A program made the translations under genes and the position numbers. Of a stretch of 25,846 nt of DNA, positions 90-16,167 are shown piece by piece (the first letter of the stretch is position 1; every line of letters starts with the position of its first letter). The stretch spans positions 1-25,846 of the IMG/VR virus record IMGVR_UViG_3300030116_003226. The stretch is one strand, 5' to 3'. The notes below the pieces were generated by a model. It was not told the origin of the DNA. It saw only the letters and a program-made list of their open reading frames with translations, and ran no database searches. Source of the stretch: a virus.

Positions 90-1012
90 TGTCTTGGGGC
101 AGTAAAACATCCGAACCAGAACGACCAGCATTTGGTCGAGAACACATGCGAGCAATGCTAGAAAAGCAAAAGGCTCGTGCAATCCGAACACCAGTCCGTA
201 TGGCGCTGGTTGGCAAGGAAAACACATGCAAGACAGGCCTAGCCCTAGACCTTGCAGGTGTTGAATCCAAGAAAACAATTACCATCCTTGACTTTGACAA
301 TTCGGCTTTGGAGACGGTTTCCCATCTTTACCCAAAGGCTAAGAACATCAATGTCATTTCCCTCTATGACGAGGCAGATGAATCCATCTTCAACGATGAC
401 AACACAACGAATTGGACTGCACTGATCGACAAGGTTGGTTGGTTCGTCAATCTAATCTCGGAGGACATCCAAGAAAATCCCGACGACCATTCAGCACTTA
501 TCTTTGATGGTGGTTCAACATTCATGAAGTGGTGTGAATTTGCTATGACCGAATCCCTTCTTCGACGTGGTGTTATCAAAGAGGAAGGCGATGGCTTCAA
601 CCAAAAGGAATGGCGTGAACGTAACCGTTTGTTCCGAGACATTATCAACCGTGTTCACGGTCTATCACTAGAGAAGGTTTTCTTTACCTTCCATTTGAAA
701 GACCACAAGACCTACGTCGACGTTGGCGGAGGTTCAAAGGGTCTGATGAAGATTGGTGAAAAGGTCGATTGGGTTGACGGCACACAGCGTATTGTCAGCC
801 AACAGATTTGGCTAGCCCGATACCGCAAAAAAGCAGATGATGCTGCGGGTGTTTCTGGCGACGATTCCCTTGATGAAAACGAATGGGTTGTTCGAGCAAC
901 CATCGAAGAAATGAAAGGGCGTGGCATGGAGCTTGTTGGTTCAACGCACGACATTCTACACATCCAAGACAAAAAGGTGTCATGGAACGGACTACCAGAC
1001 CTCAAGTGGTGA
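89..1012 (+). CDS. Sak4-like / AAA_24 RecA-fold ATPase
   Basis: 307 aa from ATG 89. This start is preferred over the in-frame TTG at 77 because it overlaps the upstream stop. A P-loop-like segment VGKENTCKTG lies at residues 41-50, with Cys47 where the Walker A Gly normally precedes Lys-Thr. A Walker B strand ALIFDGG ends in Asp140. Further on is FFTFHLKDHK, resembling the sensor strand of phage nucleotide-binding proteins of the AAA_24/Sak4 group. Sak4 proteins are RecA/RadA-like ATPases that act in single-strand annealing recombination, usually with an SSB. The place just before a clamp-like gene fits a replication-recombination role. A nucleotide-binding protein of unknown function remains possible. 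Confidence 0.68.
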   Translation: MSWGSKTSEPERPAFGREHMRAMLEKQKARAIRTPVRMALVGKENTCKTGLALDLAGVESKKTITILDFDNSALETVSHLYPKAKNINVISLYDEADESIFNDDNTTNWTALIDKVGWFVNLISEDIQENPDDHSALIFDGGSTFMKWCEFAMTESLLRRGVIKEEGDGFNQKEWRERNRLFRDIINRVHGLSLEKVFFTFHLKDHKTYVDVGGGSKGLMKIGEKVDWVDGTQRIVSQQIWLARYRKKADDAAGVSGDDSLDENEWVVRATIEEMKGRGMELVGSTHDILHIQDKKVSWNGLPDLKW

Positions 1013-1016
1013 TTTG

Positions 1017-1265
1017 GTGCAACGTGATGAATGGGGTGAACCCATCGAGGATGTTGAAGACTTAGGTGATAATGACCTAAACCTAGACCCGCCCGAGGAT
1101 GTTGCTAGCAATGTCCTTTCAGCACTACTAGACGAGATGTTCATAGATAACGCCAAACTTACTAGGATTGTCCGTGAACAGTCAAAAGCAATCGAGGAAT
1201 TACAAATGCGTGTATCAAAACTCGATGACAACCGACAATGGTTCTTTCAACCAGAGGTGATATGA
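1017..1265 (+). CDS. Small acidic coiled-coil protein
   Basis: 82 aa if translation begins at GTG 1017. The frame has no ATG near the gene junction. GGTGAT at 1008-1013 makes a fair Shine-Dalgarno site for GTG 1017, and TTG 1014 is the alternative. The first 30 residues are very acidic (EPIEDVEDLGDNDLNLDPPED). Residues about 35-72 look like an amphipathic helix or coiled coil (LTRIVREQSKAIEELQMRVSKL). I recognise no family. Its TGA at 1263-1265 overlaps the start of the next gene, so it is probably translated together with the clamp-like protein and may bind one of the neighbouring replication proteins. That last point is inference from position. Confidence 0.6.
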   Translation: MQRDEWGEPIEDVEDLGDNDLNLDPPEDVASNVLSALLDEMFIDNAKLTRIVREQSKAIEELQMRVSKLDDNRQWFFQPEVI

Positions 1266-2137
1266 TGAAATTTAACAAAAGCGATTTACTAAGTATGCTG
1301 AACAGAACAAAGCGTGAACAATTCATTAGTGGCAAGGCACAAAGTCAAGTCATGGCGTGTGTGCTACGTGCTGATGGCGATTCAACCTGCACAACAACAT
1401 CGTTGGTTCGAGATGGTAAAACCTCCCTATCTAACTTTGAATGTGGACTTCTAGGTGGTCTTGCCGATGAACAAATCCCAATCCCAGACATTGATACTGC
1501 GTTGGGTGTTCTATCTATGCATGGTCAAACTGTCTCCATCAAACATGAAGGTGACAACCTTGTGTTTAGGTCGGGCAACAAACGAACCATCCTTAAGACA
1601 AGTGGATCGGCTATGGCATTTCCGCACTCTACAGAAACCATTGATGCGTGGCAACAAAAGTCATTGGAGTTGTCAAAGAAGTTTATTTGGCATCGTGAAA
1701 ACAACGACGTTATTGACTGGTTTGCTGGCTATCAAATGGCGAACGGAACGGTTCGAGGACCCTTTGTAAGTTGGGTCGTTAGTGCGAACGAATTGTTTGA
1801 AGCACTTCGATGTGACAACATGAACGGGCAAAAATTCAACCGATACCAGATTGCATTTGACTCCAAAACAAAGACATTCCGTGTCGGTGTTGGCACTGAG
1901 ATTAAAGGATTTACCATTGTTGATTTCCCATGTGAGAACGATGATTTCCTGACCGTTCGTGTTGACGATGCCGACTTCGATTGGAATTTCAACGGTGGTT
2001 TAGAAAACGTCTTGAAAGGATTAGGAGGCAACGTCGTTGTTCATTTCCTAGACTTTAGAAGGGAGAATCAAGGAATCCGAATGGTTATCGAGATGGCGAA
2101 TGCTGGATGGATATATCAGGCGGGCGTTCTGGCGTGA
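1265..2137 (+). CDS. Probable sliding clamp (PCNA/gp45-like processivity factor)
   Basis: 290 aa from ATG 1265; ATG 1262, one codon earlier, overlaps the upstream stop. The ribosome site GAGGTGA at 1254-1260 sits 4 nt before ATG 1265. The protein looks like a duplicated beta-rich clamp fold. A first half contains ALGVLSMHGQTVSIKHEGD, like the interdomain strands of PCNA and T4 gp45. A second half has ANELFEAL and a hydrophobic C-terminal strand series ending in IRMVIEMANAGWIY. Clamps encircle DNA and tether the polymerase; a family B polymerase is encoded 1.8 kb downstream. It is a little longer than typical PCNA (about 250 aa). No clamp loader is visible here. The call rests on fold-like sequence texture and context, not on a diagnostic motif. 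Confidence 0.5.
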   Translation: MKFNKSDLLSMLNRTKREQFISGKAQSQVMACVLRADGDSTCTTTSLVRDGKTSLSNFECGLLGGLADEQIPIPDIDTALGVLSMHGQTVSIKHEGDNLVFRSGNKRTILKTSGSAMAFPHSTETIDAWQQKSLELSKKFIWHRENNDVIDWFAGYQMANGTVRGPFVSWVVSANELFEALRCDNMNGQKFNRYQIAFDSKTKTFRVGVGTEIKGFTIVDFPCENDDFLTVRVDDADFDWNFNGGLENVLKGLGGNVVVHFLDFRRENQGIRMVIEMANAGWIYQAGVLA

Positions 2138-2204
2138 TTCTGGGCGTTTCTTTGTGATTGTGGGCGTGGATAGCATGACGGACAAAACGGACGATTCTGG
2201 GCGA
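2122..2204 (+). repeat. Short direct repeats GGGCG(T/A), 20-bp spacing
   Basis: GGGCGT occurs at 2122, 2142 and 2162, exactly 20 bp apart, and GGGCGA at 2199. The last three lie in a longer shared unit GATT(C/G)TGGGCG at 2136-2146, 2156-2166 and 2193-2203. The first copies overlap the end of the clamp-like gene. The spacing is close to two helical turns, so the copies face the same side of the DNA, as operator or iteron clusters often do. Function is unknown. Confidence 0.5.
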
Positions 2205-2333
2205 CAGAAACGGGTTTCTGCGGTATTCGATGACATCCCCACATTATCAATTCTTTCTGAAAGAATAATTCATTTGCTGGGTTACGTTTTTGGGATTTAT
2301 TTATTTGTTCTTATATTCGGGAATCCTGTGTGA
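2175..2333 (+). CDS. Possible small membrane protein
   Basis: 52 aa from ATG 2175. The N-terminal half is charged (MTDKTDDSGRQKR). The C-terminal half holds one strongly hydrophobic segment, IIHLLGYVFGIYLFVLIFG, which would span a membrane. There is no clear Shine-Dalgarno site and no TATA-like box at the spacing used by neighbouring genes. The reading frame also runs through the repeats and the palindrome of this gap. It is therefore either a small viral membrane protein or a chance frame in regulatory DNA. Confidence 0.3.
   Translation: MTDKTDDSGRQKRVSAVFDDIPTLSILSERIIHLLGYVFGIYLFVLIFGNPV
2250..2266. promoter_or_regulatory. Perfect 8-bp palindrome, candidate operator
   Basis: ATTCTTTC and GAAAGAAT are exact reverse complements separated by a single T. 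A near-continuous palindrome of this size suits a dimeric DNA-binding protein, or a short RNA hairpin before the T-rich stretch that follows. It lies about 80 nt upstream of the methyltransferase promoter. Confidence 0.4.
2287..2318 (+). terminator. T-rich stretch, possible archaeal terminator
   Basis: A run of five T at 2287-2291 is followed by further T-rich sequence (TTTATTTATTTG). It lies after the clamp-like gene and before a new promoter. Archaeal RNA polymerase often terminates at T-tracts without a hairpin. The position fits the end of the first operon, but the call is weak. Confidence 0.3.
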
Positions 2334-2337
2334 TGAG

Positions 2338-2351
2338 ATACTATTATATAT
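2338..2351 (+). promoter_or_regulatory. TATA-box promoter of the methyltransferase gene
   Basis: ATACTATTATA begins exactly 35 nt before ATG 2373, and the TTATATAT octamer at 2344-2351 is centred about 25 nt before it. The mRNA would then start at or next to the ATG (leaderless). No Shine-Dalgarno site precedes this ATG. The element differs at one position from those before the regulator and polymerase genes. Confidence 0.65.
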
Positions 2352-2372
2352 CAACGTAAAGGTTCTGATATT

Positions 2373-3314
2373 ATGGCAAAGAATCCACATGGACTCCAAG
2401 AACGGTTCATGGATAATCCTTTCTCCATCATCAATACAGCAACGGGTCGTTGGCAGGATAGAAAGCGTATGTGGATTGCACAGGGTTTGAAGTCCGAGGT
2501 CGGTCGTTCTGCACGTGCATTCAACATCCAAGAATGGATGACGGACACCGATGACGTTCAAGTGGCAACACAATCTGACACATCCATATTTGACCCAGCC
2601 CTATGCGAATTGCTCTATACGTGGTTTGCACCCAAGAATTCTTTGGTTCTTGACCCGTTTGCGGGAGGATCGGTTCGTGGTATTGTTGCTGGCAAACTCG
2701 GCCACGAGTATTGGGGGCATGAACTCCGCAAAGAACAAGTCGAAGCCAACTATGAACAATGCAAAGAATTTGGTTTGCTTGATAGTGTTTGTTGGGTGCA
2801 GGGTGATTCTGCACATACCATATCAAACACACATGCTCCTTGTGATGACCATAACAAACGACGATTTGACTTCATGTTAACCTGTCCCCCATATGGCGAC
2901 CTAGAAGTTTATTCCGATGACCCAGCCGACATATCCAATATGACGTCGGAAAATTTCGACAAGGCATATGCCGAGATTATGAGTCATGCACTATACATGA
3001 TGAAGCCGAATACCTTTGTCTGTGTTGTTGTTGGCGACTATCGGGACAAAGAAGGTTTCCTATGCAATTTCGTATCAAAGACCATTGATGCCTGTCAGGT
3101 TCATGGATTCAGACTATACAATGAAATCATCCTACAAAATGTGGTTGGCACACTTGCCTTGCGTGTAGCAAAGCAATTTGAACGCAACCGCAAGATTGGC
3201 AAAATGCACCAGAATGTTTTGGTGTTTTACAACGGGTCAAAGGAACAACTTGCCGAGTTGGAGATCATCGACCTAGTAGAAGCAAAGCAACAAACGCTAG
3301 GGGAGTGGTTGTAG
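2373..3314 (+). CDS. DNA methyltransferase (N6-adenine/N4-cytosine type)
   Basis: 313 aa. S-adenosylmethionine-binding motif I is DPFAGGS at residues 94-100. The catalytic motif IV is TCPPYGD at 170-176, a (D/N/S)PPY-type motif with Cys before the two prolines. Motif I precedes motif IV with no large separate target-recognition domain. The C-terminal IGKMHQNVLVFYNG resembles the last strand of small phage DNA methylases. It would methylate an exocyclic amino group in viral DNA. No restriction enzyme is adjacent, so it looks like an orphan viral methylase that protects viral DNA from host nucleases or marks it. The ATG lies 22 nt after a TATA box and has no ribosome site. Confidence 0.85.
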   Translation: MAKNPHGLQERFMDNPFSIINTATGRWQDRKRMWIAQGLKSEVGRSARAFNIQEWMTDTDDVQVATQSDTSIFDPALCELLYTWFAPKNSLVLDPFAGGSVRGIVAGKLGHEYWGHELRKEQVEANYEQCKEFGLLDSVCWVQGDSAHTISNTHAPCDDHNKRRFDFMLTCPPYGDLEVYSDDPADISNMTSENFDKAYAEIMSHALYMMKPNTFVCVVVGDYRDKEGFLCNFVSKTIDACQVHGFRLYNEIILQNVVGTLALRVAKQFERNRKIGKMHQNVLVFYNGSKEQLAELEIIDLVEAKQQTLGEWL

Positions 3315-3338
3315 TGGGAACGTCAATAACCGAACGGT

Positions 3339-3346
3339 TTTTAAAT
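3339..3346 (+). promoter_or_regulatory. TATA-like box for the 71-aa gene
   Basis: TTTTAAAT is centred about 25 nt before ATG 3368, matching the leaderless spacing seen at neighbouring genes. It supports ATG 3368 as the start rather than the upstream GTG/TTG codons of the same frame. Confidence 0.5.
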
Positions 3347-3367
3347 TGTTTTAATATCGAGGTTCTT

Positions 3368-3583
3368 ATGAATACGCCACGTGATTTTAGAAAGGAATGC
3401 ACAACAATACTAGAGTTTGAACGCACCGACTTTGACGATTCCGCAGAATACTGGAAGGGTGTATGCCCTACGTGTGGCGATGTGTATGAGTTTCGTTCAG
3501 TCCGTCGCTTTGAAGGATTTCATCTCGTCGGACAGGAAGAACCAAAGCCTGACTACTTTACTCCCGATTGGCACGTTTCATGA
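3368..3583 (+). CDS. Small CxxC protein, unknown function
   Basis: 71 aa from ATG 3368. One metal-binding-type pair, Cys33-Pro-Thr-Cys36 followed by Gly, sits in a zinc-knuckle-like turn (GVCPTCGDVYEF). Cys11 and two His residues could add ligands. The rest is acidic in the first half and Arg-rich around residues 43-47. I do not recognise a family. It lies between the methyltransferase and the regulator and has its own TATA-like box, so it is probably an independently transcribed small regulator or accessory protein. Confidence 0.6.
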   Translation: MNTPRDFRKECTTILEFERTDFDDSAEYWKGVCPTCGDVYEFRSVRRFEGFHLVGQEEPKPDYFTPDWHVS

Positions 3584-3587
3584 ATAA

Positions 3588-3599
3588 ATACCATTATAA
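3588..3599 (+). promoter_or_regulatory. Promoter of the HTH regulator (shared core)
   Basis: ATACCATTATA at 3588-3598 starts 35 nt before ATG 3623 and is identical in sequence and distance to the element before the DNA polymerase gene. The TTATAA box is centred about 26 nt before the ATG. This spacing favours ATG 3623 over ATG 3617 as the true start. Confidence 0.65.
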
Positions 3600-3622
3600 C
3601 CTTTCTCGAAGTAGGTATGTAT

Positions 3623-3937
3623 ATGTCGATAGAATTAGAAGACGACGAATTGCTACTTATCCACTACAGAACGGAAGATGGCGATACTAGAAGTGTGAGC
3701 ATACAGAATGAAAACGATACTACAACCTTTGTTGATGGTGATTATTCCATCCAAGTAAAGGTTAAGAAGATCAACCTAGAAAAGAATTACAAGAACCGTG
3801 ATTGGCTTGTAAAAGCCTATGTCGACGAGTCCCGAACAATGCAGGACATTGCCGATGAATACGACGTTTCCCCTATGACCATTTACACTTGGCTAAAGCG
3901 TTTTGACATTCCAACCCGTTCTAGGGGTCGACGCTGA
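3623..3937 (+). CDS. Helix-turn-helix transcriptional regulator
   Basis: 104 aa from ATG 3623. The N-terminal 50 residues form a small acidic beta-rich domain (IELEDDELLLIHYRTEDGD). The C-terminal half is a homeodomain-like helix-turn-helix at about 58-100: a helix starting DWLVKAYVDESRTM, a turn with IADEYDVS, and a recognition helix MTIYTWLKRFDI followed by a basic tail PTRSRGRR. This layout is common in archaeal and phage DNA-binding proteins. It is a good candidate for controlling the shared promoters of this arm, possibly including its own, since its promoter matches that of the polymerase gene. That regulatory link is inference. Confidence 0.75.
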   Translation: MSIELEDDELLLIHYRTEDGDTRSVSIQNENDTTTFVDGDYSIQVKVKKINLEKNYKNRDWLVKAYVDESRTMQDIADEYDVSPMTIYTWLKRFDIPTRSRGRR

Positions 3938-3945
3938 ACCATAGC

Positions 3946-3959
3946 ATACCATTATATAT
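3946..3959 (+). promoter_or_regulatory. Promoter of the DNA polymerase gene (shared core)
   Basis: ATACCATTATA begins 35 nt before ATG 3981, and TTATATAT at 3952-3959 is centred about 25 nt before it. There is no Shine-Dalgarno site, so the transcript is probably leaderless. Confidence 0.7.
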
Positions 3960-3980
3960 GGCGGTCGCATTCTATTATTT

Positions 3981-6200
3981 ATGATAGTAGAGCGTATTGG
4001 TGGCTACGAATCCACAAAGGTCTGGATTCGATGGCGAGATGAAAACAACAAGGTCAAAACGATTGTTGACAACGAGTGGAAACCATTTGGTTTTCTTGAA
4101 ACCAAAGATGCAAAATATGTCAATGCGCTCGCAAAGGAAGATGGCTACAAAGGCGTCTATGGTGAGGATTTGACAAAGGTTACAATGTCCGCACCACATC
4201 AAGTAGGCTCGCTAAAGAATCGTTTTGAAAAGACATGGGAATGCAACGTCCCTTGGGTTGATCGAGTCCTTTCGCAACGCTTGAAAGCAAGGCTAGCACC
4301 AATTCCCAATTACAACCACCGCATCTGGTATTGGGATATGGAATGGGATTCCGATACTGAGATGATTACGGTCATTTCAATCTATGATAGTTACAACGAG
4401 AATATGTTGCTTTGGTATCTTAAAAATGATGCACACGACCCTGTTGGCGACATGGGAGTATTTACTTACTCCTTTGATTCCGAATCGTCTATGCTAATCC
4501 ACTTCGTAGAAACGCTAAAGCAATTTGACCCTGACATACTTACTGGTTGGAATGTCGTCAATGCCGACACAAGGGTATTGATTGAACGGCTACAGGCCAA
4601 TGACATCGACCCTAAATGTTTGTGTGCTCCAGGTGTCCGTAGGATTACCCATGATTGGTCGGATTGGGCTCAGCCTATCGGTGGTCGCCTAGTAGTCGAC
4701 CTAATGCTGTGTGCAACAAAATTGTGGCAAATAAAGAATGGAGCATTGCCCGACAAAAAGCTGGATACCGTAGCACGTATCATGCTAAATGAAAGCAAGG
4801 TTGACCTTCCAGACGGACACAATTCATATTACACCGACATTAACAAGTATCTCGAATACAACCTAATCGACACACGGTTGCTGGTCGACATCGACCATGC
4901 TGTCAATGCAATCAACCATCATCTTGCTATTCAACACATTGTTCAATGCAGTTTCAGGGCAACCCCTTTCGTAACCAAACTCTTTACGATTATGGCTATC
5001 AATGACCCACTGTTTGACCTACAAATACCATCGAAGGCACAATTTGAATACGTGCCGTATTCGGGTGCATCCATCATGGATCCTCGGCCTGGTCGCTATG
5101 AACGTGTAGCAATCATGGATATTAAGGCAATGTATCACAGCAATGTCAATCTGCACAACATATCTTGGGAAACATTGCGTGTTGGGGTTGATGTAGGCAA
5201 AGACTGTGGCAACGGCTCTAGATTCGCACAAGGACAACGAGGTTTGTTGGGTCGACAAATGGATTTGATGACCAACCTCCGTAACAAATACAAATCAAAA
5301 ATGCGTAATGCTAAGGATGAACGGGAAAAGCGTCGTTGGGATGCAATGCAGTTTGCTACAAAGTCATTGGTTGCTTCTATGTATGGAGCTGCGGGCGATT
5401 CTAAATATGGTTTGTATCACCCCGAAGTTGCAGCTGCGATTACATACACATCCCGTCAAACACTATTCCGCTTACAAGAAGAATGTGGAAAGCATGGTAT
5501 GTCAGTCATTTACGGACACACCGATTCTGTCTTTGTAACCTGTGATGGCATTGAACATGCGGAACGTGCTTTGGAGCAAATAAACAAAGACCTAGACCCT
5601 ATCATAACCGAGTTTGAAAAGTATTGCATGTCTATGGTTATTGTAGCCAAGAACCGATATGCAGGTGCGGTTACATACACCGATGGCGTGATTCACGACC
5701 CTGAATTATACGTCAAAGGTATCGAGATGAAACAAAGCAGATTGCCACCGATTATGAAGCAAGTTATGGCTAAAGCCATTTGGGCGGTTTTGCGAGGTCA
5801 TGATGGACTTCATTTAATGCGGTATTTAGAGGACATGATAAAGGATATTTTGTCTGGTAGAATACCTGAAACCGATCTATGCATTCAAGCAAGACTATCA
5901 CAGGATTTGCATGACTACAAAGTGTTAGGCGAATCACGTCGAGGTGCAGCATGGGCTAACCGTGTGCTAGGCAAAGGTTATCGCAAGGGTAGTAGTTTTC
6001 TGTCGGCCATTGATGCATCGGGAGAATACATTGCATTTGATGACCCGTCAGACATCGAGGGTATAACAACCATCGGCAAAGAATTGATGATTGACAAGTT
6101 TATTGTCGACAAAGTAAGGCCATACTTTGAATTGATGATGTGGGATATTCAACCCTTGCTAAACGCTAGAAACGGCATTTCCGATGTTGGTTGGCTTTGA
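3981..6200 (+). CDS. polB: Family B DNA polymerase
   Basis: 739 aa, compact for the family. The 3'-5' exonuclease motifs are complete: Exo I WYWDMEWD with Asp119 and Glu121, Exo II GWNVVNAD with Asp196, and Exo III YNLID with Tyr293 and Asp297. The polymerase motifs follow: motif A IMDIKAMYHS with Asp380, motif B around Lys461 (ATKSLVASMYG), motif C YGHTDS at 511-516 with Asp515, then KNRYAG near 557-562. In motif C the first Asp of the usual YGDTDS is His513; the catalytic Asp515 is kept. Motif B has Ala-Ser where Asn-Ser is usual. No intein is seen. It should be the viral replicative polymerase with proofreading, working with the clamp-like protein and primase encoded nearby. It has its own TATA promoter. 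Confidence 0.95.
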   Translation: MIVERIGGYESTKVWIRWRDENNKVKTIVDNEWKPFGFLETKDAKYVNALAKEDGYKGVYGEDLTKVTMSAPHQVGSLKNRFEKTWECNVPWVDRVLSQRLKARLAPIPNYNHRIWYWDMEWDSDTEMITVISIYDSYNENMLLWYLKNDAHDPVGDMGVFTYSFDSESSMLIHFVETLKQFDPDILTGWNVVNADTRVLIERLQANDIDPKCLCAPGVRRITHDWSDWAQPIGGRLVVDLMLCATKLWQIKNGALPDKKLDTVARIMLNESKVDLPDGHNSYYTDINKYLEYNLIDTRLLVDIDHAVNAINHHLAIQHIVQCSFRATPFVTKLFTIMAINDPLFDLQIPSKAQFEYVPYSGASIMDPRPGRYERVAIMDIKAMYHSNVNLHNISWETLRVGVDVGKDCGNGSRFAQGQRGLLGRQMDLMTNLRNKYKSKMRNAKDEREKRRWDAMQFATKSLVASMYGAAGDSKYGLYHPEVAAAITYTSRQTLFRLQEECGKHGMSVIYGHTDSVFVTCDGIEHAERALEQINKDLDPIITEFEKYCMSMVIVAKNRYAGAVTYTDGVIHDPELYVKGIEMKQSRLPPIMKQVMAKAIWAVLRGHDGLHLMRYLEDMIKDILSGRIPETDLCIQARLSQDLHDYKVLGESRRGAAWANRVLGKGYRKGSSFLSAIDASGEYIAFDDPSDIEGITTIGKELMIDKFIVDKVRPYFELMMWDIQPLLNARNGISDVGWL

Positions 6201-6246: not shown

Positions 6247-7134
6247 ATGACCCAAACCAGTTACAACCCGTCCGCCGATGGCCTACTGCGTGTCAGTAAG
6301 TCGTCGTTTATGCTATACAACACCTGTCCCCGTAAGTATTGGTGGCAACACATTGGACTTCCCGACATCCGTGAACCACCAACACCCGAGATGATTCGTG
6401 GCACAAACATCCACAAGATTGCCGAGGCAGTATTGACGACCGATGGTGCAACGGCAGTGAGACAAAAGGCATACCAAATGCTGAAAGACATGGATATGCA
6501 CATAACTGATATGTTCATGGATGAAACGCTAGCAAGTCTTGACGAACAAATACGTTCACGCTTTGGTGAGTATGAGGTTATCATGTGCGAGGAGAAGATT
6601 AGTGCTTTGGATGACAAACACAACGTCATGCTCGTAGGATCACTTGATGGTGTTCTACGCTTTTGGCATACCGACGACGAGGGCAACAAACATGAATACA
6701 TTGCACTGGTCGAAGTCAAGACGGGCAATTGGTCGACGGGCAAACTTGCACGAACCCGACGTGAATTGTGTTTCTATACCAAGTTGCTACATCACTACAA
6801 CGGATTGACTCCAACCCACTTCCTTTACATCACTCCCGACTACAACCCACAAAACGATGCATACAAGATGGTTGATGACTTTCGCTCTAGAAAAAACAAA
6901 CACGTTGTTCAATCGGATATTCGGTCTGGCGTTGCATGGATGGAGCGTATCAATCCTCGTAGTATCAACGCCTTTATGAAAGCGTATGACAGAACCATTG
7001 AAGGCATTCAGTCGCTAGATTTTAATATCCGATGGAATGACTACTACTGTGGCCAGTATTGCTCCTACATGGTGCAATGCGAGCCCGAGATGATGGGTCT
7101 AGCCGACGACCCCACAAAGGAGGAACAAGGATGA
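6247..7134 (+). CDS. Cas4/RecB-like PD-(D/E)XK nuclease with Fe-S cysteines
   Basis: 295 aa. Nuclease motifs appear in order: RGTNIH with His56, GSLDG with Asp134, the core VEVKTG with Glu156 and Lys158, and a QxxxY-like ELCFY with Tyr177. Four cysteines frame the domain as in Cas4, AddB and Dna2: Cys27 (NTCPRKYWW) near the N-terminus and Cys268, Cys272 and Cys278 (CGQYCSYMVQC) near the C-terminus, suited to a 4Fe-4S cluster. Such enzymes resect DNA ends or trim flaps during recombination and replication. There is no CRISPR array or other cas gene here, so a viral recombination/replication role is inferred. Its stop overlaps the next gene's ATG. Confidence 0.85.
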   Translation: MTQTSYNPSADGLLRVSKSSFMLYNTCPRKYWWQHIGLPDIREPPTPEMIRGTNIHKIAEAVLTTDGATAVRQKAYQMLKDMDMHITDMFMDETLASLDEQIRSRFGEYEVIMCEEKISALDDKHNVMLVGSLDGVLRFWHTDDEGNKHEYIALVEVKTGNWSTGKLARTRRELCFYTKLLHHYNGLTPTHFLYITPDYNPQNDAYKMVDDFRSRKNKHVVQSDIRSGVAWMERINPRSINAFMKAYDRTIEGIQSLDFNIRWNDYYCGQYCSYMVQCEPEMMGLADDPTKEEQG

Positions 7135-7292
7135 AACAAACCGTAACCGCATGTAATAAGTGTGCATCGCATAACCGTGTCGAAGAACATATGACGCTTG
7201 TAACAGGACAAGAAGGTGACCACCCCAAAGAAGTTATTTTAGTGACGTGCCTAGATTGTGGAGATGAAGAATATGTTACCGTTTCCTCGTGA
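7131..7292 (+). CDS. Mini zinc-ribbon protein
   Basis: 53 aa. ATG 7131 overlaps the nuclease stop (ATGA), and a strong ribosome site AAAGGAGG lies 7-8 nt upstream. Two CxxC pairs, Cys8/Cys11 and Cys40/Cys43, form a classic zinc ribbon. The second half (HPKEVILVTCLDCGDEEYV) is weakly like the TFS/TFIIS C-terminal ribbon, but the acidic DE loop of TFIIS is not clear, so no function is assigned. Its end overlaps the primase start region, so the three genes form one translationally coupled operon. Confidence 0.7.
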   Translation: MKQTVTACNKCASHNRVEEHMTLVTGQEGDHPKEVILVTCLDCGDEEYVTVSS

Positions 7293-8280
7293 GATTGGAT
7301 TGAAGAGACAACAATGCACCGACTACCAAGCCTTTTGCGATTACATCAACACACTCAACGGCAAGACTTCGCTTTACACATCCCTTTATTCCTTTACATC
7401 GACGAAGTATGACAAGCCTTGGCGATACGACTACACAACTGCAATCATTGACAAAGCGTGGTGGGATTTTGACACAACAGAACAATACGGCATTGAAAGG
7501 GTCAAAGAGGACGTTGCTCAACTTATCAGGCGATTGGTGGGAGACGTTCGGGTTGTTGCCACAGGACGTGGCTTCCACGTCTACCAATACTTCAAGCGAT
7601 CCGTCACAGGACACGAATGGCGACACCACCTGATTCGCTATCAACGTGAAATGGCAAAAGGACTCCCTACTTTGGATGGCGTTGGCCTTCCCGAGAAACT
7701 TGTTCGTATTCCTCGAACATACAACCCAAAGCGAGGTCGATGGGCTGTTCCCATTACACCGCATCTTTTTGCTGATGACCCATTATCCTATGACATTCCT
7801 AATCATCCGAACGATATTCAAGAATGCCCGTTTCTGGGCATTCCTAATGGCCGAGAATCGTTTGATTTGGTTTTGTGGGTGCATGATAACCCAATTCAAA
7901 CAAAGGCCACAGAAAGCGTTTCTGTGGCTTTCTCCGCCAACACCCAAACAACTGACGACATTACCATACCGCCATGCATCGGAAACCACATTGTATCAGA
8001 CAATCCATCACACTTCACAAGGTTGGCCTTGGTTCAGTTTCTATCCGAAGAATTGCGTTGGTATGCCGATCCTGATATTCTTTCAGACGAGGATTGGAAG
8101 GCGATTGAATCAAAGATATTCGACTACATCAAAGGCTTATCCTGGCGTGACTTCAACGAGTATCGCACACGTGTTGGTATTCGCACCAACATGAAATACA
8201 AACAATCGCCTACCTGTCGTGCGTTTTCATCACGGAATATGTGTGCAAGTAGGTGCTGGAAATACGACGGAACGTTTTAA
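7273..8280 (+). CDS. Archaeo-eukaryotic primase: PriS-like catalytic domain fused to PriL-type Fe-S domain
   Basis: 335 aa from ATG 7273, with GGAG at 7260-7263 as ribosome site; GTG 7258 and ATG 7264 are alternatives. The catalytic part shows the primase motifs: WWDFD with Asp65 and Asp67, ATGRGFH with His102, and a third-motif Asp135 followed by LVRIPRTYNPKRGRW. From about residue 230 the sequence matches the PriL C-terminal Fe-S domain pattern: TIPPCIGN, HFTRLALVQFLSEEL, DFNEYRTRVGI, SPTC and MCASRC. Its four cysteines are Cys235, Cys315, Cys324 and Cys328. In cells these parts are separate subunits. PriS-PriL fusions are known from a few archaeal plasmid primases. It would synthesise primers for viral replication. 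Confidence 0.85.
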   Translation: MLPFPREIGLKRQQCTDYQAFCDYINTLNGKTSLYTSLYSFTSTKYDKPWRYDYTTAIIDKAWWDFDTTEQYGIERVKEDVAQLIRRLVGDVRVVATGRGFHVYQYFKRSVTGHEWRHHLIRYQREMAKGLPTLDGVGLPEKLVRIPRTYNPKRGRWAVPITPHLFADDPLSYDIPNHPNDIQECPFLGIPNGRESFDLVLWVHDNPIQTKATESVSVAFSANTQTTDDITIPPCIGNHIVSDNPSHFTRLALVQFLSEELRWYADPDILSDEDWKAIESKIFDYIKGLSWRDFNEYRTRVGIRTNMKYKQSPTCRAFSSRNMCASRCWKYDGTF

Positions 8281-8296
8281 ACTTCTATACAATCAA

Positions 8297-8304
8297 TTTA
8301 AAGA
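8297..8304 (+). promoter_or_regulatory. TATA-like box for the 66-aa zinc ribbon gene
   Basis: TTTAAAGA is centred about 27 nt before ATG 8328. There is no ribosome site. The spacing selects ATG 8328 over the earlier in-frame starts, which overlap the primase gene. Confidence 0.5.
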
Positions 8305-8327
8305 GATTGACCCCCTACTGCATATCA

Positions 8328-8528
8328 ATGCCAATAAAGACTGACTACACCTTTGTTGTGGAGTGTTGGGGCTGTGCTAAGCAATGGGCGGACAATCAAC
8401 CGCTATCAAAGCAATGTCCTTATTGCCTTTCAAACGAGGTTCATGTTGTATGCAATATCATTGACCAAGCACACCTAATGGAGTCCGAGACAGCACTAGA
8501 AGCCGTTGATGATAGACAATTGATTTAA
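8328..8528 (+). CDS. Small zinc-ribbon protein
   Basis: 66 aa from ATG 8328. Two CxxC pairs, Cys13/Cys16 (ECWGCAKQW) and Cys30/Cys33 (KQCPYCLS), are 13 residues apart, a compact zinc ribbon or rubredoxin-like knuckle. An acidic C-terminal tail follows. No family is recognised. It is probably a leaderless monocistronic gene, or co-transcribed with the nuclease gene 25 nt downstream, which has its own TATA-like box. Confidence 0.65.
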   Translation: MPIKTDYTFVVECWGCAKQWADNQPLSKQCPYCLSNEVHVVCNIIDQAHLMESETALEAVDDRQLI

Positions 8529-8553: not shown

Positions 8554-9273
8554 ATGCTGACCATTGACGACCGTGAAAACGTCAAGGTCAAAAACAAAGT
8601 CTTGATGATGATGGGAGATCATCAGATAGACAAAAAAGGACAAGCACAAGTCGATAGGTTGCCTGTTGGCGACTACATCATCCCCGAAGTAGGATGGGGT
8701 GTTGAAGCAAAGGAAATCAATGACCTATACCAAAGCATTACAGGTCAGGGTCGTTCAAGAACGGTCAACGCACAATTGGTTGATTTGGCAGACCACTTCG
8801 ACATCCCCTTTCTAGTGGTCTATGGCACACAACTTAAACCATATGTTCGGGGAAAACCAAACCGTCGAGACCTAGCGATTCAAATGGAGCGAATGAAACG
8901 AACAATCAAAGCATTCAAAGAAACACTCCATGTCCGCCACCCAAAGATTCGATTCATGCAGTTAGATACGATGGACGACTTCGTTTCGTGGCTAGCACAA
9001 AACCACGCACAAATGATGATGGCTGCAAAAAAACAGAAAAATCCTTTTGTGGTTTCGGGAATGGTAAGTGAAAAAGACCCTCGCATCCGTATGCTATGCG
9101 GGATTCAAGGAATTACACCCTTTGTAGCCAAAAACTTGCTAGAAAAATTTGGTTCTATCAAAGGCATACTCGATCCTAAAGTTACGCAAAAGGAGTTAAT
9201 GAAAACCGATGGTGTTTCTAGGCAACGTGCTCGCATGATTAAGAAGGCGGGTCTTTCTTGGGGCGACTCCTAA
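8554..9273 (+). CDS. ERCC4/XPF-type structure-specific nuclease with HhH domain
   Basis: 239 aa. The N-terminal ERCC4 nuclease domain begins TIDDRE (Asp5, Asp6, Glu8), followed by PVGDY with Asp40 and then VEAKEINDL with Glu51, Lys53 and Asp57. This is the GDx(n)ERKxxxD signature with EAK in place of ERK. From about residue 175 come two helix-hairpin-helix motifs (IQGITPFVAKNLLEKFGSIK and MKTDGVSRQRARMIKKAG), the usual DNA-binding tail of XPF/Hef/Mus81 nucleases. No helicase domain is present. It should cut branched or flap DNA in viral replication or recombination. It is the last gene of the plus-strand arm. Confidence 0.88.
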   Translation: MLTIDDRENVKVKNKVLMMMGDHQIDKKGQAQVDRLPVGDYIIPEVGWGVEAKEINDLYQSITGQGRSRTVNAQLVDLADHFDIPFLVVYGTQLKPYVRGKPNRRDLAIQMERMKRTIKAFKETLHVRHPKIRFMQLDTMDDFVSWLAQNHAQMMMAAKKQKNPFVVSGMVSEKDPRIRMLCGIQGITPFVAKNLLEKFGSIKGILDPKVTQKELMKTDGVSRQRARMIKKAGLSWGDS

Positions 9274-9354: not shown

Positions 9355-12300
9355 TCACTTTAGTCCTCTCACACCGTTCGATTTGAAGCCAAGAATACGG
9401 CTTGTTCCTGAACGAGCGGGGTTTGTAGCCCTGTTGAATCGCACACGGACATTGTGCAAAACCAGTGATGTTTCGAGTGCTGTGTCATTCCCATTCCCCG
9501 CTTGTCGTTCAATCGTCACCTTGATTGTGTTATTGACTGTTGACGCACCTTCAAGGCTAACTGAACCTAGTGAAAATTGAGTATTTAGTGTATCGGTGGG
9601 TATTCCCGTAGTAACTGACAATGATTCACCAGTTTCAACGCATTCTATGGTGGTTTTAACGACGGCTACTTTTGCACTGCCTTCGACGTTTTCTAGCGAT
9701 ACAACTGCATCAACTACAACCAGCTTTCCGACTACGTTTTCGGGGACGGGAATCGTATAAGATACGTTGTGAATTGGCTGAGTAGCCGTCAAATCACCTA
9801 CACCCGCACCAGGCAATACATCACCTTCTTCCGACATCAATGAACCTGATGATGATGACCGAATAGCATTTATGCCATCTATTGCTGATTGACTTAGACT
9901 TGTCGACCCTTTGTTTTTACTGCCCAAAATGCTAAAATCACCATCGCTTCCCCCGAAGTCGCTTTGTAAATTCATTTTTCCTTTTACTAGGTCGAGCATA
10001 TCGGATGTTGTGTTGTTGACACCAAACACCTTGTTTGAAAAGTGTTGTCCTGTTATGCCCGTCGATCCTCCACCAATGCCGACGCCCGCAAAGTTTCGTT
10101 GTGTGCCTCCACCGATTATATCAAATCCGCCATCATATCCTGGTGCTGTGTTTGTTCCTTGACCTCCGCTATCGAATGGTGGGAATGGTTCGGGATTTAC
10201 ACCACTTCCACCCATCCCACCTCCAGGATTTCCTGATGACGGGTGTTGTTGTCTATCAGCCTCACGTGTTGTTGGTGTTCGGCTTTTGCTAACCTCAGGC
10301 ATGATGTATGACGCTAAATTGCCAATGGCTCGTGATTCATCACGTTCTAGTGTTAATGTTACGCTGTCCGTGTCTTGTTTGTTGACCGACCAATCTACCG
10401 CTTGTATGACAAAATTTGTAGCCGTTGAAATACCTAAGTGATCGTCGGTGTATGATACTACGGTTGACGGATAGAAGTTAATGTCGTCAACGATTGAAAG
10501 ACGTGGCGCATGGAAAATTGGTGCAACAGTTCCCGTAGGGACGGATGCTTCGGTTCGTAGTCCTAGTGGGAACGGTGATTGTTCTCGAACATTTGACCCA
10601 CCGTTTGTTGTATTAAATCCAGCAACATCGTGGGCGTTTGCATATTTGTATGTGCCACTCGACAAATCACCATTTCTTACACGCAATAGTGCTCGTAGAT
10701 ATTCGGCATTGATTGACACAATAATTCGCTCGTTTCCGCTATCGCTAGCCCAATACCCATTAGGTATTTCTATCTCATGTAATCCGCTATGCTTGAATTT
10801 TAAAGACGACTTAGCATGATAGCCGTCGTTGAAAATCTGATGGTCGGTGCTAACACCCGTATGTCCCGATGCAGCCGTTGTAAATGTTGTATTGGGGTCG
10901 ATTAGTGTCAAGTAAAATTCTACGTCGTCCTCCGTTGGCGAACCAGACGCTGCGTAGTTATCGGCCAACAAAATGCCAACACGTAGCATTTCACCGCTAG
11001 CATCACTTACCTTTGGCATTCCCTTTGGTATGTGAACAATCTTGACGGCCTCCGTGATTGATTTTGTGCCAATCCACTTGTATGTTGCATATGGTCTAAA
11101 TTCAGTCGATTGCCCTGCTGCCATACCGCCAGAACTTCCCTGTCCAAACACGTTGCCAGAACCAGTTGATGGGTCTGTTGCATTTCCACTTAGAACATTT
11201 CCATCCAATCCATTTTGTTCACCCGAGTAGTGCATTCCATTGTGCCATGACGTCCATGTCGCTGCGGAATTTGCACTCCATAATTCAGGCCAAACCGTTC
11301 GATGTGCGGGATCGAGAATGTAGCCATGACGTGCCTCGTATAGCATTTTGCTGGTTTCGGACAACTGCGTAACAAATTCCGCCTTTATCTTCAACGATGG
11401 TGTTTGTGCTTTGGCATATGTTGTCTGTGCAATAGATAATGCTTCACGGTGCGAACGGATTGATGGCAATTCAATAATCTTCCATCGGTTTTCAGTCCCT
11501 AGCGTTGGTGCAGGGTGGTCAACAAAAGACGCTCCGTTATTGTAGTAGACTCGAACATTTGACACACTTGAAATCGGTGAACCACTCATGCTTGACACTT
11601 GCAAATTATCACGTGTAAATGAAAATCCACTGTTATAGGCTGGACGGAAGTCTAGTCGACCATCACGCCCCGTTGTGTATGTAAAAACTGTGTTCACACC
11701 GTTAAGACCCGTTCTTGATAGGTCGCTTAGTTCTTGCAAAATGCTCATTAGTGACTTTCCTCGTGCGTCAAACGATGCCCCGTATGTGTCCCAGTCTTGA
11801 ACCGTTCCCGATGACAAATCATACTTCTTTACATTGGTGTCAACCGCTTGTTGTGTAGTGGTCATTCTGCGTGTAATAGGCACGTTCTTGTGGTTGAATA
11901 CCAATGGCATAGAGAATTGTGCCATAGGGTGTTCTGACGACGATAAAACGCTAATTATGCGTAGCATCTCGTCATAGTGAAATGAACCGACGTTTGGTGC
12001 TTCAACATATCCATCCAAATTCATCATAAATCGCAAAGCAAGTGGTGCGGTCATTCCAGAATAAAACACAATTTTTTCATATCCGTCGTTAATGTTGTTG
12101 ATCGAGTCATTATAGCGGATTGGCGTTGTAGTCCCAACGGTTATACCTGAAAGTGTTTTGTATTGTAACTCATTTAGTGCCTGAGCAACCATTTCTTCTT
12201 GTGTGAGCCGTGTTTCATCAACATCGGTTATTGACACACCGCTTAGCGTATTGGTTGACGTATTGTTGCCCGTCCAAGTGTAAATTAAAATGTTACGTTC

Positions 12301-15300
12301 ACGTGTATTTGAATTGCTATCACGCTCTAATTCGATAAAACCAATTCCTTGATTCGGAAACTCCGATGTGTCATCCAAAACAACTGTTGTATCGCCTGCA
12401 CGAATGTTATACTGCGACGAACCACTGCCTTGATTTGACCGCAAATTTGAACCCGCACTGAAAAAGTTATACCAATTTGGATGATATGAAATAGGTGATG
12501 CAGCATTAGCGGGTGTGGCAGCTGCTTCTTGCCAATAATCGTCAATTAGGGCTGGGTGGCCTTCGGTGTCTAATACAAGGTCGCCTAGCGTTGTTCGACC
12601 GCCCGATATTTGCGACGTTCTTCCGCCATTTGCTTCGGTATTTAAATTGAAGAACTTTGAAAAATCTATGATTAGGAAAGCACCCGCCTTATTTTGCCAA
12701 TTTTGGAATTGTGTTTGTGATAAAGAGTCTGATCCTAGTGCCGACCATGTTCCTGCGGTGTAAGGTTCGATTGTTGAATCAACTTCCCAAATATCACAAT
12801 CGTTTCCTACCGCAAGTGACACAAAATTGACCACGTTTCCGTCAATATCGGTCTGGTCGGTGTATTGAAGGGATATTGAATAGTTATCTGGGGTTGGGTA
12901 AAGTAGTCCAAAATCCTTTTTCCTTGTGCTTCCATCGGCATCTGCCTCACCATTGTTTCGCATATCCGCCCAAAGCACCCAAATATGCTTATAATCGTCA
13001 TCAATGTCTCGTATTTTGATGGTTGTTCCCGTTGCATGGGTTAAGGATGCAAATTTGACGCCCTGAAGTTGCACTTTACCACTAACATTTGCTACTGCAT
13101 TAAAACAAAACGAATCAACTCGACCATCGGCTTTGTGAAACTCACCTATTCCGCTAGCCAAAATTGCAGTTGCTACGGCACTGGTGTGAGTTACATCGGT
13201 TGTAACTGTTGTAGAAGAACCTGCAGTAAAAGTGGATGTGGTTAATGCCTCACGTTCAGGTGACGATGGAGTTTGGACTAGATCGACTGGTAATTCTTTG
13301 ATGCGCCCAAACATCTTTTTGAACCAAAGTGACTTAGGTAGGTCTTTCATCCACACCGCATGATTGACACGGTTTGCCACTTCATCCCAAGGACTGCCTG
13401 ATACTAGCGTTGCTGAGGATAAAGTGCCACCGCCATACGACACCTCATACGGTGTATTGCTTCCTGCACCGTTCTTTGTGTAAAATGGGGCTGTCGATGT
13501 TGCTATCGAGGAATCACCATCGGTTATGTCCGACCAAAGACCATCAGTGTAAAGGACATCGTATAATGTTCCGTTGACTGTTAACTGTGTTTTTATGCGA
13601 ACAGTAACTATTCTAGCACGAGTAAAAACAGGGTAGGATGTTCCTGCACTCCTAGTAACATATGGGTGTGGTGTAGAGGTCATGTTTGCTATTTCACTTG
13701 ATGTTGGGTTTTGCACTGCAATTGTATTTCCTACTATGTCCGCAGGAACACCTGAATGTCCTGGTGTAAGGTAAAGTGCGTAGTAACTTGTTCCACCATC
13801 AGTCCACCTTTTTGCGAATGCTACTGTAGCGTCGGCAGAATGAGTTATACCTGAAAAATAAACTGTGTTTCCTAAATTGGTAGTGTCATCAGTGCCTTCT
13901 GAAAAATAAATCAAAGACCCTGCATACCCATTTGTCGAGGTGGTTGTGTCGTATTTAGTGCCACCACCAATTGTGTGAGCTGTTCCGCCATGTGCAGAAT
14001 TTGTTCCTACACTTGCACAATGAACAAACATGCCACCCATAGCCTCACTACCCGCACCGCCTGTTGTATTAACACCCTTAGAAAATCCTAGAATCTTTCG
14101 ACCAGTCCATTGATCCTCTACAGAATTTGGCCCTAAATCATCCTCGTCGTTATACATCTGGATTGGATGGCTAGAGTAAAGGGATGTGCGTTGGTCATTT
14201 AACTCCTCGTAGGCCGATGTTATGTAGCCAATTTTGTCATCACGTAGAGTCAATTTTGCTGCACCAAAGTATAGGACGTCGGACAGTTTTTCCGCTAGCC
14301 CACGACGTTGTTCGATGCTATCAGTCGTTGTCGTTAATGCACCTTGTCCTATTTCCCACATTGGGAGTTGTCGGTCGAGGTTCTTTGCGGGGTCGCTAAA
14401 TTCAACCGTAATCATCCGTGTTGCTTGTTTGAGTGCTTGTGAAATACGGATTCGTGATATTGTTCCCGTTACGATTACTCGATTGTCACCGTTACGTGAA
14501 ACCATGACTAGCCACTCGGCACTAGACGCACCACTTAGCAATTGATAGACGTTCAATCGGTTGTTGTCGTCAATAATTTGCATGTTTCCTGACATCAATT
14601 TGTTCGAGGCCATTTTGGTTTGCATTGATTCGACCAACACATCATTTGTTCGACTTACGTGATCGGTCACAGGATGCAGTAGACCTACACGGTCAATCAT
14701 TGTTAGCACTTGCCATGAATAATTCATGTATGCAGTAACTGTTCCTGCCACGTTGTTTGCTGCTTGGTATGGTGCAATAACGCCCGATTGTAGTTTGAGT
14801 TGCCATCCGTAAAAGTCGGATGCAGTCCATGAGCCACCGCCAGGTCGGGATGCAAAGGCTACGTTTGTTGCTTTCGAGGTTCCGTCTAAATACCATGAAT
14901 ATCGTTGATTTGTAAAATCCAAGACAATATCAACATCTCCCCAAATATCGGTCATGGCAGTAGCCGTTGACGTTGTTGTTTGTGATGCGTGACCAGCAAC
15001 CGCCCCTTTGTGAATATGATGATGGTTTCCGCCTGCTAAATCGGTAATCGGGATTGAAAGTGTAATTGCAGGTGTGTTTGATAGACCAGTAGCCGATGCG
15101 GAGGTTGTTCCCGCCAAAAATCCTACTTGCAAAGACCATGTAGGTGTGTTTAGATTTCCAGCACGATTGGCAGTCAAATCCTGGTCGGTAAAGGACTGGT
15201 GGGCTAGTCGAATGTGAAACGTATCATTGTCTCCAATAGCGTTTAGTGTGCCATCGTAGGCACAAAGCAATTTGTCACTGCCCGTTTGACGAAGTTGTGT

Positions 15301-16167
15301 ATCGGGTGTTCCATCGGAATTTGTATCTAAGTTGTATGCCTTTACACGAGCATCGCAAAGCATAAATGGCTTACCCGATGGCGACGTAATTGTTTGACCA
15401 ATAGACTGCCGATAGCCCTTTGTTACTTCCGAGGTGTTTCCAGTAGGTATTTCCGCCCACCCAATGTTCATTCGAGTCCATTGTAGATACCCAGCCCTGC
15501 ACCAATCAACAAGTTCACCACTAGCATCGCTCCTAGCCCCAAAATTGTATGATGCTGGCGCTATTGATGTCGCACTTGCCGAGTTTGATTCGTGACTCAT
15601 GGCATTAGTTCTTCTTACAATGTATTTGTTACCCCCGCTAGTGTTGAATTGAGTGTTTTGATCCCAAATTCGCAAATTGTCTCGTCCAAACGAACCGTCA
15701 CGTGATGAGTAAAAGTAGTATTTTGTGCCTGTTCGACGTGGGTTGTTGACCCACATATAACCATCAGTGGTAACACCCGTATTTGTTATGCCCGTATTAA
15801 CACGGTTGCTGTGGAAATAAGTTTGTGGGCTGCGGGTAGTAGCCCTTCCTTCCCAATTGACGCCCCCAGAAAGGCGCACAGTGTCTTTTGTTAGGTATTT
15901 GTGGATTCCTTCGTTGTGTGCCTGACGTTGAATACCCGTTGTTGTGTATTTACCCGTAGCCTCGTCACGTTCGATCACTGAATGTCGGAATATAGGATTC
16001 AGTGGAGCCTCGCCATTAACGGTGTTTCCATGATGAGTCTTTTCATGGTCAAATGTCAAATCGCTCGCTGCATTTTTATCATCGGGAATACAAATGTTTG
16101 CCTCAAAGTCGTCATAGTAGCCTGCTAGCCACACTACATACTTTTTGTCACTTAGGTCTCTTGTCAT
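9355..16167 (-). CDS. Giant tail hub/tail tip protein (2270 aa)
   Basis: 2270 aa, starting 8 nt after the tape measure stop. By position it forms the tail tip or central hub. Segments seen: an N-terminal region of about 300 residues rich in Gly, Ser, Thr and Asn; a LamG/concanavalin-like part near 400-435 (DIVLDFTNQRYSWYLDGTSK); a first hub-like beta domain near 490-605 (SGNMQIIDDNNRLNVYQLL, then TRMITVEFSDPAKNLDRQLP); a beta-hairpin motif at about 1255-1300; a second hub-like part near 1440-1590 (SLMSILQELSDLS, DGRLDFRPAYN); a glycine-rich stretch near 1975-2037; and a C-terminal beta domain. It probably combines the hub with host-binding domains. The assignment rests on gene order and pattern similarity. 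Confidence 0.72.
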   Translation of the reverse strand: MTRDLSDKKYVVWLAGYYDDFEANICIPDDKNAASDLTFDHEKTHHGNTVNGEAPLNPIFRHSVIERDEATGKYTTTGIQRQAHNEGIHKYLTKDTVRLSGGVNWEGRATTRSPQTYFHSNRVNTGITNTGVTTDGYMWVNNPRRTGTKYYFYSSRDGSFGRDNLRIWDQNTQFNTSGGNKYIVRRTNAMSHESNSASATSIAPASYNFGARSDASGELVDWCRAGYLQWTRMNIGWAEIPTGNTSEVTKGYRQSIGQTITSPSGKPFMLCDARVKAYNLDTNSDGTPDTQLRQTGSDKLLCAYDGTLNAIGDNDTFHIRLAHQSFTDQDLTANRAGNLNTPTWSLQVGFLAGTTSASATGLSNTPAITLSIPITDLAGGNHHHIHKGAVAGHASQTTTSTATAMTDIWGDVDIVLDFTNQRYSWYLDGTSKATNVAFASRPGGGSWTASDFYGWQLKLQSGVIAPYQAANNVAGTVTAYMNYSWQVLTMIDRVGLLHPVTDHVSRTNDVLVESMQTKMASNKLMSGNMQIIDDNNRLNVYQLLSGASSAEWLVMVSRNGDNRVIVTGTISRIRISQALKQATRMITVEFSDPAKNLDRQLPMWEIGQGALTTTTDSIEQRRGLAEKLSDVLYFGAAKLTLRDDKIGYITSAYEELNDQRTSLYSSHPIQMYNDEDDLGPNSVEDQWTGRKILGFSKGVNTTGGAGSEAMGGMFVHCASVGTNSAHGGTAHTIGGGTKYDTTTSTNGYAGSLIYFSEGTDDTTNLGNTVYFSGITHSADATVAFAKRWTDGGTSYYALYLTPGHSGVPADIVGNTIAVQNPTSSEIANMTSTPHPYVTRSAGTSYPVFTRARIVTVRIKTQLTVNGTLYDVLYTDGLWSDITDGDSSIATSTAPFYTKNGAGSNTPYEVSYGGGTLSSATLVSGSPWDEVANRVNHAVWMKDLPKSLWFKKMFGRIKELPVDLVQTPSSPEREALTTSTFTAGSSTTVTTDVTHTSAVATAILASGIGEFHKADGRVDSFCFNAVANVSGKVQLQGVKFASLTHATGTTIKIRDIDDDYKHIWVLWADMRNNGEADADGSTRKKDFGLLYPTPDNYSISLQYTDQTDIDGNVVNFVSLAVGNDCDIWEVDSTIEPYTAGTWSALGSDSLSQTQFQNWQNKAGAFLIIDFSKFFNLNTEANGGRTSQISGGRTTLGDLVLDTEGHPALIDDYWQEAAATPANAASPISYHPNWYNFFSAGSNLRSNQGSGSSQYNIRAGDTTVVLDDTSEFPNQGIGFIELERDSNSNTRERNILIYTWTGNNTSTNTLSGVSITDVDETRLTQEEMVAQALNELQYKTLSGITVGTTTPIRYNDSINNINDGYEKIVFYSGMTAPLALRFMMNLDGYVEAPNVGSFHYDEMLRIISVLSSSEHPMAQFSMPLVFNHKNVPITRRMTTTQQAVDTNVKKYDLSSGTVQDWDTYGASFDARGKSLMSILQELSDLSRTGLNGVNTVFTYTTGRDGRLDFRPAYNSGFSFTRDNLQVSSMSGSPISSVSNVRVYYNNGASFVDHPAPTLGTENRWKIIELPSIRSHREALSIAQTTYAKAQTPSLKIKAEFVTQLSETSKMLYEARHGYILDPAHRTVWPELWSANSAATWTSWHNGMHYSGEQNGLDGNVLSGNATDPSTGSGNVFGQGSSGGMAAGQSTEFRPYATYKWIGTKSITEAVKIVHIPKGMPKVSDASGEMLRVGILLADNYAASGSPTEDDVEFYLTLIDPNTTFTTAASGHTGVSTDHQIFNDGYHAKSSLKFKHSGLHEIEIPNGYWASDSGNERIIVSINAEYLRALLRVRNGDLSSGTYKYANAHDVAGFNTTNGGSNVREQSPFPLGLRTEASVPTGTVAPIFHAPRLSIVDDINFYPSTVVSYTDDHLGISTATNFVIQAVDWSVNKQDTDSVTLTLERDESRAIGNLASYIMPEVSKSRTPTTREADRQQHPSSGNPGGGMGGSGVNPEPFPPFDSGGQGTNTAPGYDGGFDIIGGGTQRNFAGVGIGGGSTGITGQHFSNKVFGVNNTTSDMLDLVKGKMNLQSDFGGSDGDFSILGSKNKGSTSLSQSAIDGINAIRSSSSGSLMSEEGDVLPGAGVGDLTATQPIHNVSYTIPVPENVVGKLVVVDAVVSLENVEGSAKVAVVKTTIECVETGESLSVTTGIPTDTLNTQFSLGSVSLEGASTVNNTIKVTIERQAGNGNDTALETSLVLHNVRVRFNRATNPARSGTSRILGFKSNGVRGLK

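Follow-up and report, generated by a model that had tools for sequence, protein, structure and literature searches.

Can one short viral protein combine the catalytic part of a primase with a PriL-type domain, when cellular primases distribute these parts over two chains? The question is raised by a gene in a 25,846-base record from an uncultured virus, the whole of which we refer to as the window. The original prediction described the 335-aa product as a compact primase with PriS catalytic motifs and a PriL-type Fe-S domain. The observation behind it stands: all positions that it named (D65, D67, H102, D135, C235, C315, C324, and C328) are present in the open reading frame (ORF), all but C315 are invariant in the aligned homologs, and profile comparisons support both domains. 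The cysteines lie in the predicted contexts PPC (C235), SPTC (C315), MC (C324), and RC (C328), and the HFTRLALVQFL helix corresponds to residues 247–257. A GTG codon 15 bases upstream of position 7273 is a possible alternative start, but the start at 7273 is favored because the N-terminus, MLxFPRxIGLKR, is conserved.

Table 1. Features of the primase gene and of the surrounding replication block in the window.
Feature	Positions	Strand	Evidence
RecA/Sak4-like ATPase	77–1012	+	AAA_24 1e-9; phrog_124 8.5e-7
Possible sliding clamp (divergent candidate)	1262–2137	+	Conserved gene; phrog_947 (DNA polymerase processivity factor) 0.0016 only
DNA methyltransferase	2373–3314	+	phrog_12517 type, 2e-86
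Family B DNA polymerase (PolB)	3981–6200	+	PF00136 2e-35
PD-(D/E)XK (Cas4-like) exonuclease	6247–7134	+	PF12705 1.4e-12
Single-chain primase gene, 335 aa	7273–8280	+	ORF list; homologous loci in IMG/VR
AEP/Prim-Pol catalytic domain, residues 1–205	7273–7887	+	AF2 pLDDT about 90; Foldseek; hhalign to PriS
Motif I, D65-F-D67	7465–7473	+	Invariant 35/35
Motif II, GRGFH (H102)	7564–7578	+	H102 invariant 35/35
Motif III D135 and R-[IV]-[PS]-x-T-[YF]-N segment	7675–7734	+	D135, R145, T149, N151 invariant
Linker, residues 206–230	7888–7962	+	pLDDT below 50 at 210–228
PriL-type C-terminal domain, residues 231–335	7963–8277	+	hhalign to 30 archaeal PriL C-terminal domains
Cys235, putative ligand 1	7975–7977	+	Invariant 35/35; aligned with PriL FPPC
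H247-x-x-R250, predicted initiating-nucleotide site	8011–8022	+	Invariant 35/35; aligned with archaeal PriL H-x-x-R
Cys315, putative ligand 2	8215–8217	+	Pro in one sister clade
Cys324, putative ligand 3	8242–8244	+	Invariant 35/35; C2–C3 spacing 9 as in archaeal PriL
Cys328, putative ligand 4	8254–8256	+	Invariant 35/35
ERCC4-type nuclease with HhH	8554–9273	+	PF02732 1e-10; PF14520 1.7e-6

The AlphaFold2 model of the whole protein has a mean pLDDT of 84, with disorder in the linker at 210–228 and a C-terminal tail of low confidence, and the N-domain model has a Prim-Pol fold. The closest solved fold is that of the CRISPR-associated Prim-Pol CAPP (Foldseek 1.3e-4, prob 1.00), which differs from the viral primase in its C-terminal domain and its context; further matches in the PDB are LigD Pol (2e-3) and archaeal PriS (0.016). 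In profile comparisons, the N-terminal domain matches nine archaeal PriS sequences (hhalign 91 per cent, E = 1.1e-6; shuffles, 0/100) and the AEP of a distant phage AEP-helicase, L047 (hhalign 95 per cent, E = 1.8e-8), with which it also shares D135 of motif III and the segment that follows. The N-terminal domain is an AEP, and not specifically a PriS. The "PriS catalytic motifs" of the original prediction are therefore correct as AEP motifs, but their PriS specificity is not borne out, because the domain is equally close to mobile-element Prim-Pols (CAPP and phage AEPs). The outcome of the profile check proposed for residues 1–200 is similarly divided: archaeal PriS is matched, as given above, but the cellular PriS family PF01896 has no match to the primase above its cut-off, even with profiles.

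Single-sequence searches of the primase against Pfam, NCBIfam, PHROGs, and the PDB gave no match, and profile searches of the PDB (hmmsearch with the whole, N-terminal, and C-terminal alignments) returned noise only. Likewise, the C-terminal domain has no match to PF04104 above the gathering score. When its profile is compared with that of 30 archaeal PriL C-terminal domains (PF04104), the two match with an hhalign value of 92.6 per cent (E = 4.5e-7, score 43.1). This likeness exceeds chance, because none of 500 column-shuffles scores above 26.7 (0/500 reach 43.1) and five neighboring genes score at most 18.6; the profile check proposed for residues 225–335 thus favors the PriL assignment. All four cysteines are in register with those of archaeal PriL, the spacing between the second and third is nine residues in both, and the viral and cellular domains share FPPC, H-x-x-R, DF-x-E-x-TR, and P-[ST]-C...C...C motifs. 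In turn, the archaeal PriL profile aligns its own H-x-x-R with HGGR of human p58C, in which His303 and Arg306 are, via archaeal PriL, the counterparts of H247 and R250 (PMC5333051). H247 and R250 are therefore predicted to form the site for the initiating nucleotide. The model of the C-terminal domain alone consists of five helices (pLDDT 85), and a Foldseek search of the PDB with it gave no significant match. The AEP domain, the linker, and the C-terminal domain together leave no room for the N-terminal docking domain of PriL, so that the viral protein has the C-terminal half of PriL and lacks the N-terminal domain.

Scans of IMG/VR yielded 17 relatives at first and 46 loci in the profile scan, one of which is the phage AEP-helicase mentioned above, which matches the N-domain only. 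No relatives of the primase were found in a degenerate scan of GTDB genomes or by tblastn in INPHARED. In an alignment of 35 homologs (44–69 per cent identity), the catalytic residues D65, D67, H102, and D135, the cysteines C235, C324, and C328, and the pair H247 and R250 are invariant. Cys315 is found in 17 of the 35 sequences and is replaced by proline in the remaining 18, and exactly these 18 carry a CWxC motif that places a cysteine three residues after Cys328. Since the loss of Cys315 coincides exactly with the gain of CWxC, every sequence retains four cysteines. The 18 sequences form a single clade (support 100/99; primase C-termini of loci L019–L024 and L027–L043), and the canonical pattern, to which the window primase itself belongs, is paraphyletic and is shared with a sister marine family and with cellular PriL. 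The second putative ligand was therefore lost, and the new cysteine gained, once. Two cysteines were gained in this clade, and Cys331 (18/18) is preferred over Cys283 (17/18) as the probable replacement for Cys315, because it is present in all members. A lack of conservation of the cysteines in relatives had been set beforehand as a refuting condition for the domain assignment; the outcome favors the assignment, since they are kept, with one relocation in 18 of the 35.

The primase gene is part of a plus-strand block in which genes for the ATPase, the possible clamp, the methyltransferase, an HTH protein, PolB, the Cas4-like nuclease, the primase, a zinc-ribbon-like ORF, and the ERCC4-type nuclease follow each other. 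The block is present on at least 45 marine viral contigs, and the order ATPase, clamp-like gene, PolB, Cas4, primase, ERCC4 is kept across the loci in which it is readable. The methyltransferase gene belongs to the block in the closest relatives and was not detected in most other members. The best annotated relatives of the PolB are from haloviruses. No separate PriL was recognizable in 18 related records and no separate PriS family member in 14; many of these records may be fragments, so that the lack of further primase genes counts for little, although it is consistent with a self-sufficient viral primase. A Pfam search for MCM among the relatives matched all controls as well.

Both ends of the primase gene are overlapped by small zinc-ribbon-like ORFs on the plus strand, the start by 7059–7292 and the stop by 8253–8528. 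They are conserved in the nearest relatives (36–63 and 30–45 per cent identity, respectively) and are possibly translationally coupled partners. Beside the block, an ORF of 2270 aa occupies positions 9355–16167 of the minus strand. This length is unusual for a virus with related contigs of up to about 67 kb, and the product is presumably a tail or receptor-binding protein. We read the minus-strand genes after the block as structural from their ORF sizes and order.

Given these observations, the C-terminal domain could be read in two other ways. One is that it belongs to the helical domains of PriCT type and gained its cysteines independently: PriCT-1 and PriCT-2 are related to the Fe-S_N part of PriL and are common in AEPs of mobile elements (PMC5862659), and the failure of Foldseek to find a PriL fold for the domain model would fit such an origin. 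We consider it very improbable, given the four cysteines in register, the C2–C3 spacing of 9, and FPPC, H-x-x-R, DF-x-E-x-TR, and P-[ST]-C as in cellular PriL, and because the match extends to the part with the distal cysteines, the counterpart of Fe-S_C. The other is that the four cysteines form a zinc site, with a zinc finger as in PrimPol and UL52-type enzymes, instead of holding an iron-sulfur cluster. A cluster is only predicted at these positions, and the compact CxxxxCWxC of the clade with the relocated cysteine would suit zinc, but the homology and the order of the cysteines follow PriL, whose cellular cluster is 4Fe-4S, and not the UL52 zinc finger. Moreover, purified PolpTN2, which is also a PriS–PriL fusion, is light brown (PMC3973330). 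A zinc site is unlikely in our view, if not negligibly so.

A further alternative concerns the role of the enzyme and not its domains. It might be a Prim-Pol that acts mainly in repair, recombination-dependent replication, or gap filling, with a C-terminal domain that only binds DNA. Such a role would agree with the non-replicative functions of the enzymes with the closest solved N-domain folds (CAPP and LigD Pol) and with the recombination-type neighbors (the Sak4-like ATPase and the Cas4-like and ERCC4 nucleases). However, this is the sole primase found in the block and it is always near PolB, its C-terminal domain keeps the H-x-x-R and the cysteine set of replicative PriL, and its counterparts in the sister family and in haloviruses are located in replication modules. 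In our view, a mainly non-replicative enzyme is distinctly improbable.

We conclude that the gene very probably encodes a replicative single-chain primase, composed of an AEP domain, a linker, and a PriL-type four-cysteine domain, of a marine, most probably archaeal, tailed virus. Homology links each domain to a cellular or mobile-element counterpart, conservation covers the catalytic residues as well as the presumed ligands, and PolB is encoded nearby in the conserved block. By homology, the C-terminal domain is expected to bind a [4Fe-4S] cluster. An archaeal host is suggested by the halovirus affinity of PolB and the primase, together with the ERCC4 gene. In the mechanism that we propose, the cluster at the four cysteines would serve the folding of the C-terminal domain, and H247 and R250 would hold the initiating nucleotide by its 5' triphosphate. 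The flexible linker would then let the domain swing over to the active site (D65/D67/D135 and H102), where the AEP domain would join two nucleotides on single-stranded DNA into a dinucleotide, and the primer would be passed to the viral PolB for extension. More tentatively, these proteins may represent a minimal and widespread lineage of archaeal-virus single-chain primases without the PriL docking domain, one clade of which moved a ligand of the cluster site. Although we hold this broader reading to be doubtful, such a lineage, if real, could show the smallest architecture that starts primers in the manner of PriSL, as well as flexibility in cluster geometry.

With catalytic and presumed initiating-nucleotide sites on 335 aa, the protein would be among the smallest natural PriSL-like primases, and its single chain would make it convenient for testing the contribution of the PriL C-terminal domain. 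The assignment also offers a function for a family of marine-virus proteins that Pfam, NCBIfam, and PHROGs do not recognize. The need for the Fe-S cluster is debated, and in Sulfolobus PriSLX the cluster is dispensable for primer synthesis (PMC5700102); natural variants, such as the relocated ligand in one clade and the cysteine losses in some haloviruses, bear on this debate.

Compared with cellular PriS–PriL (Pri1–Pri2/p58), the viral primase has the same catalytic triad and histidine, PriL C-terminal cysteines, and H-x-x-R, but it is one chain, whereas the cellular enzyme is larger, has two chains, and includes the PriL N-terminal domain. Single-chain designs are known as well. The original prediction attributed such fusions to a few archaeal plasmid primases, which is correct for PolpTN2; their range is wider, however, as they are also annotated in haloviruses of the Hafunaviridae and a primase of this kind is reported for the archaeal virus JdFR1000234. 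PolpTN2 of the Thermococcus plasmid pTN2 (compared here as NC_014115, 10248–13013) combines PriS-like and PriL-like domains with four predicted Fe-S cysteines in one chain (PMC3973330) and, at 922 aa, has additional PriCT-1 and winged-helix parts (PMC5862659). Another pTN2 coding sequence (1785–4622) lacks cysteines and was ruled out as PolpTN2. The motif II histidine is replaced by glutamine in PolpTN2, whereas the much shorter viral primase retains H102, and the comparison of PolpTN2 with the viral profile is not significant (hhalign 2.5 per cent). As judged from their sequences, PolpTN2 shares with the viral primase the idea of the fusion and not close homology.

Fused primases with AEP and PriL-type parts are found in 53 INPHARED records of haloarchaeal viruses, many of which carry the depositor note "eukaryotic/archaeal primase small subunit (N-terminal region) and large subunit (C-terminal region)". 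Those of the Hafunaviridae (HRTV-27 gp62, UBF22755.1; HRTV-17 gp72; HF2 HrrHF2_285; HSTV-2 gp62; phrog_9660) have an AEP N-domain and a PriL-type C-domain in one chain, are encoded in a module with PolB and a Cas4-like/PD-(D/E)XK nuclease, and match the window primase over residues 30–331 in a whole-length comparison (hhalign 91 per cent, E = 9.7e-7). They differ in size (about 390–420 aa versus 335 aa) and in their halophile hosts. The phrog_9660 model has no match to the window primase but matches the sister-family locus L106 (4.5e-9). A direct comparison of the window-family C-terminal profile with the halovirus C-terminal domain is not significant, and each of the two matches PriL. Some fused primases of haloviruses or proviruses have lost C-terminal cysteines (HRTV-27 and L073) or even the first cysteine (L068) and so are natural variants in which the putative cluster site is incomplete (loci L049:3561–4802, L068, and L073). 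Halovirus-type fused primases are also present in haloarchaeal chromosomes or contigs (L059–L066; Natronorubrum, Halospeciosus, Halonotius, and others), where they are probably parts of proviruses.

A primase with a PriL domain has been reported for JdFR1000234 (PMC5340873). Structure matches in BFVD that cover the whole length of the window primase include A0A1S5Y2Y2 (E = 5e-9), a 327-aa protein of an uncultured archaeal virus named "Archaeal/eukaryotic-type DNA primase large subunit", which is presumably the JdFR1000234 primase; it is 18 per cent identical to the window primase and comes from a subsea-floor virus. The sister marine family (L102–L110 and L171–L250) comprises at least 189 loci, many of them on contigs of 85–97 kb. 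It matches the window primase over the full length (hhalign 99.8 per cent, E = 4e-28; about 24 per cent identity), conserves the PC, PxC, C, and KCWR cysteines and NPSHxxR, and has the order PolB, Cas4, primase, but it belongs to a separate virus lineage. Its contig sizes and marine source point to Magrovirales as its probable affiliation, and an archaeo-eukaryotic primase has been reported in members of this order (PMC10768690). Because haloviruses, JdFR1000234, the sister marine family, and PolpTN2 carry similar designs, the fused AEP–PriL architecture is not new, and the window primase is a compact, previously unannotated marine branch of it.
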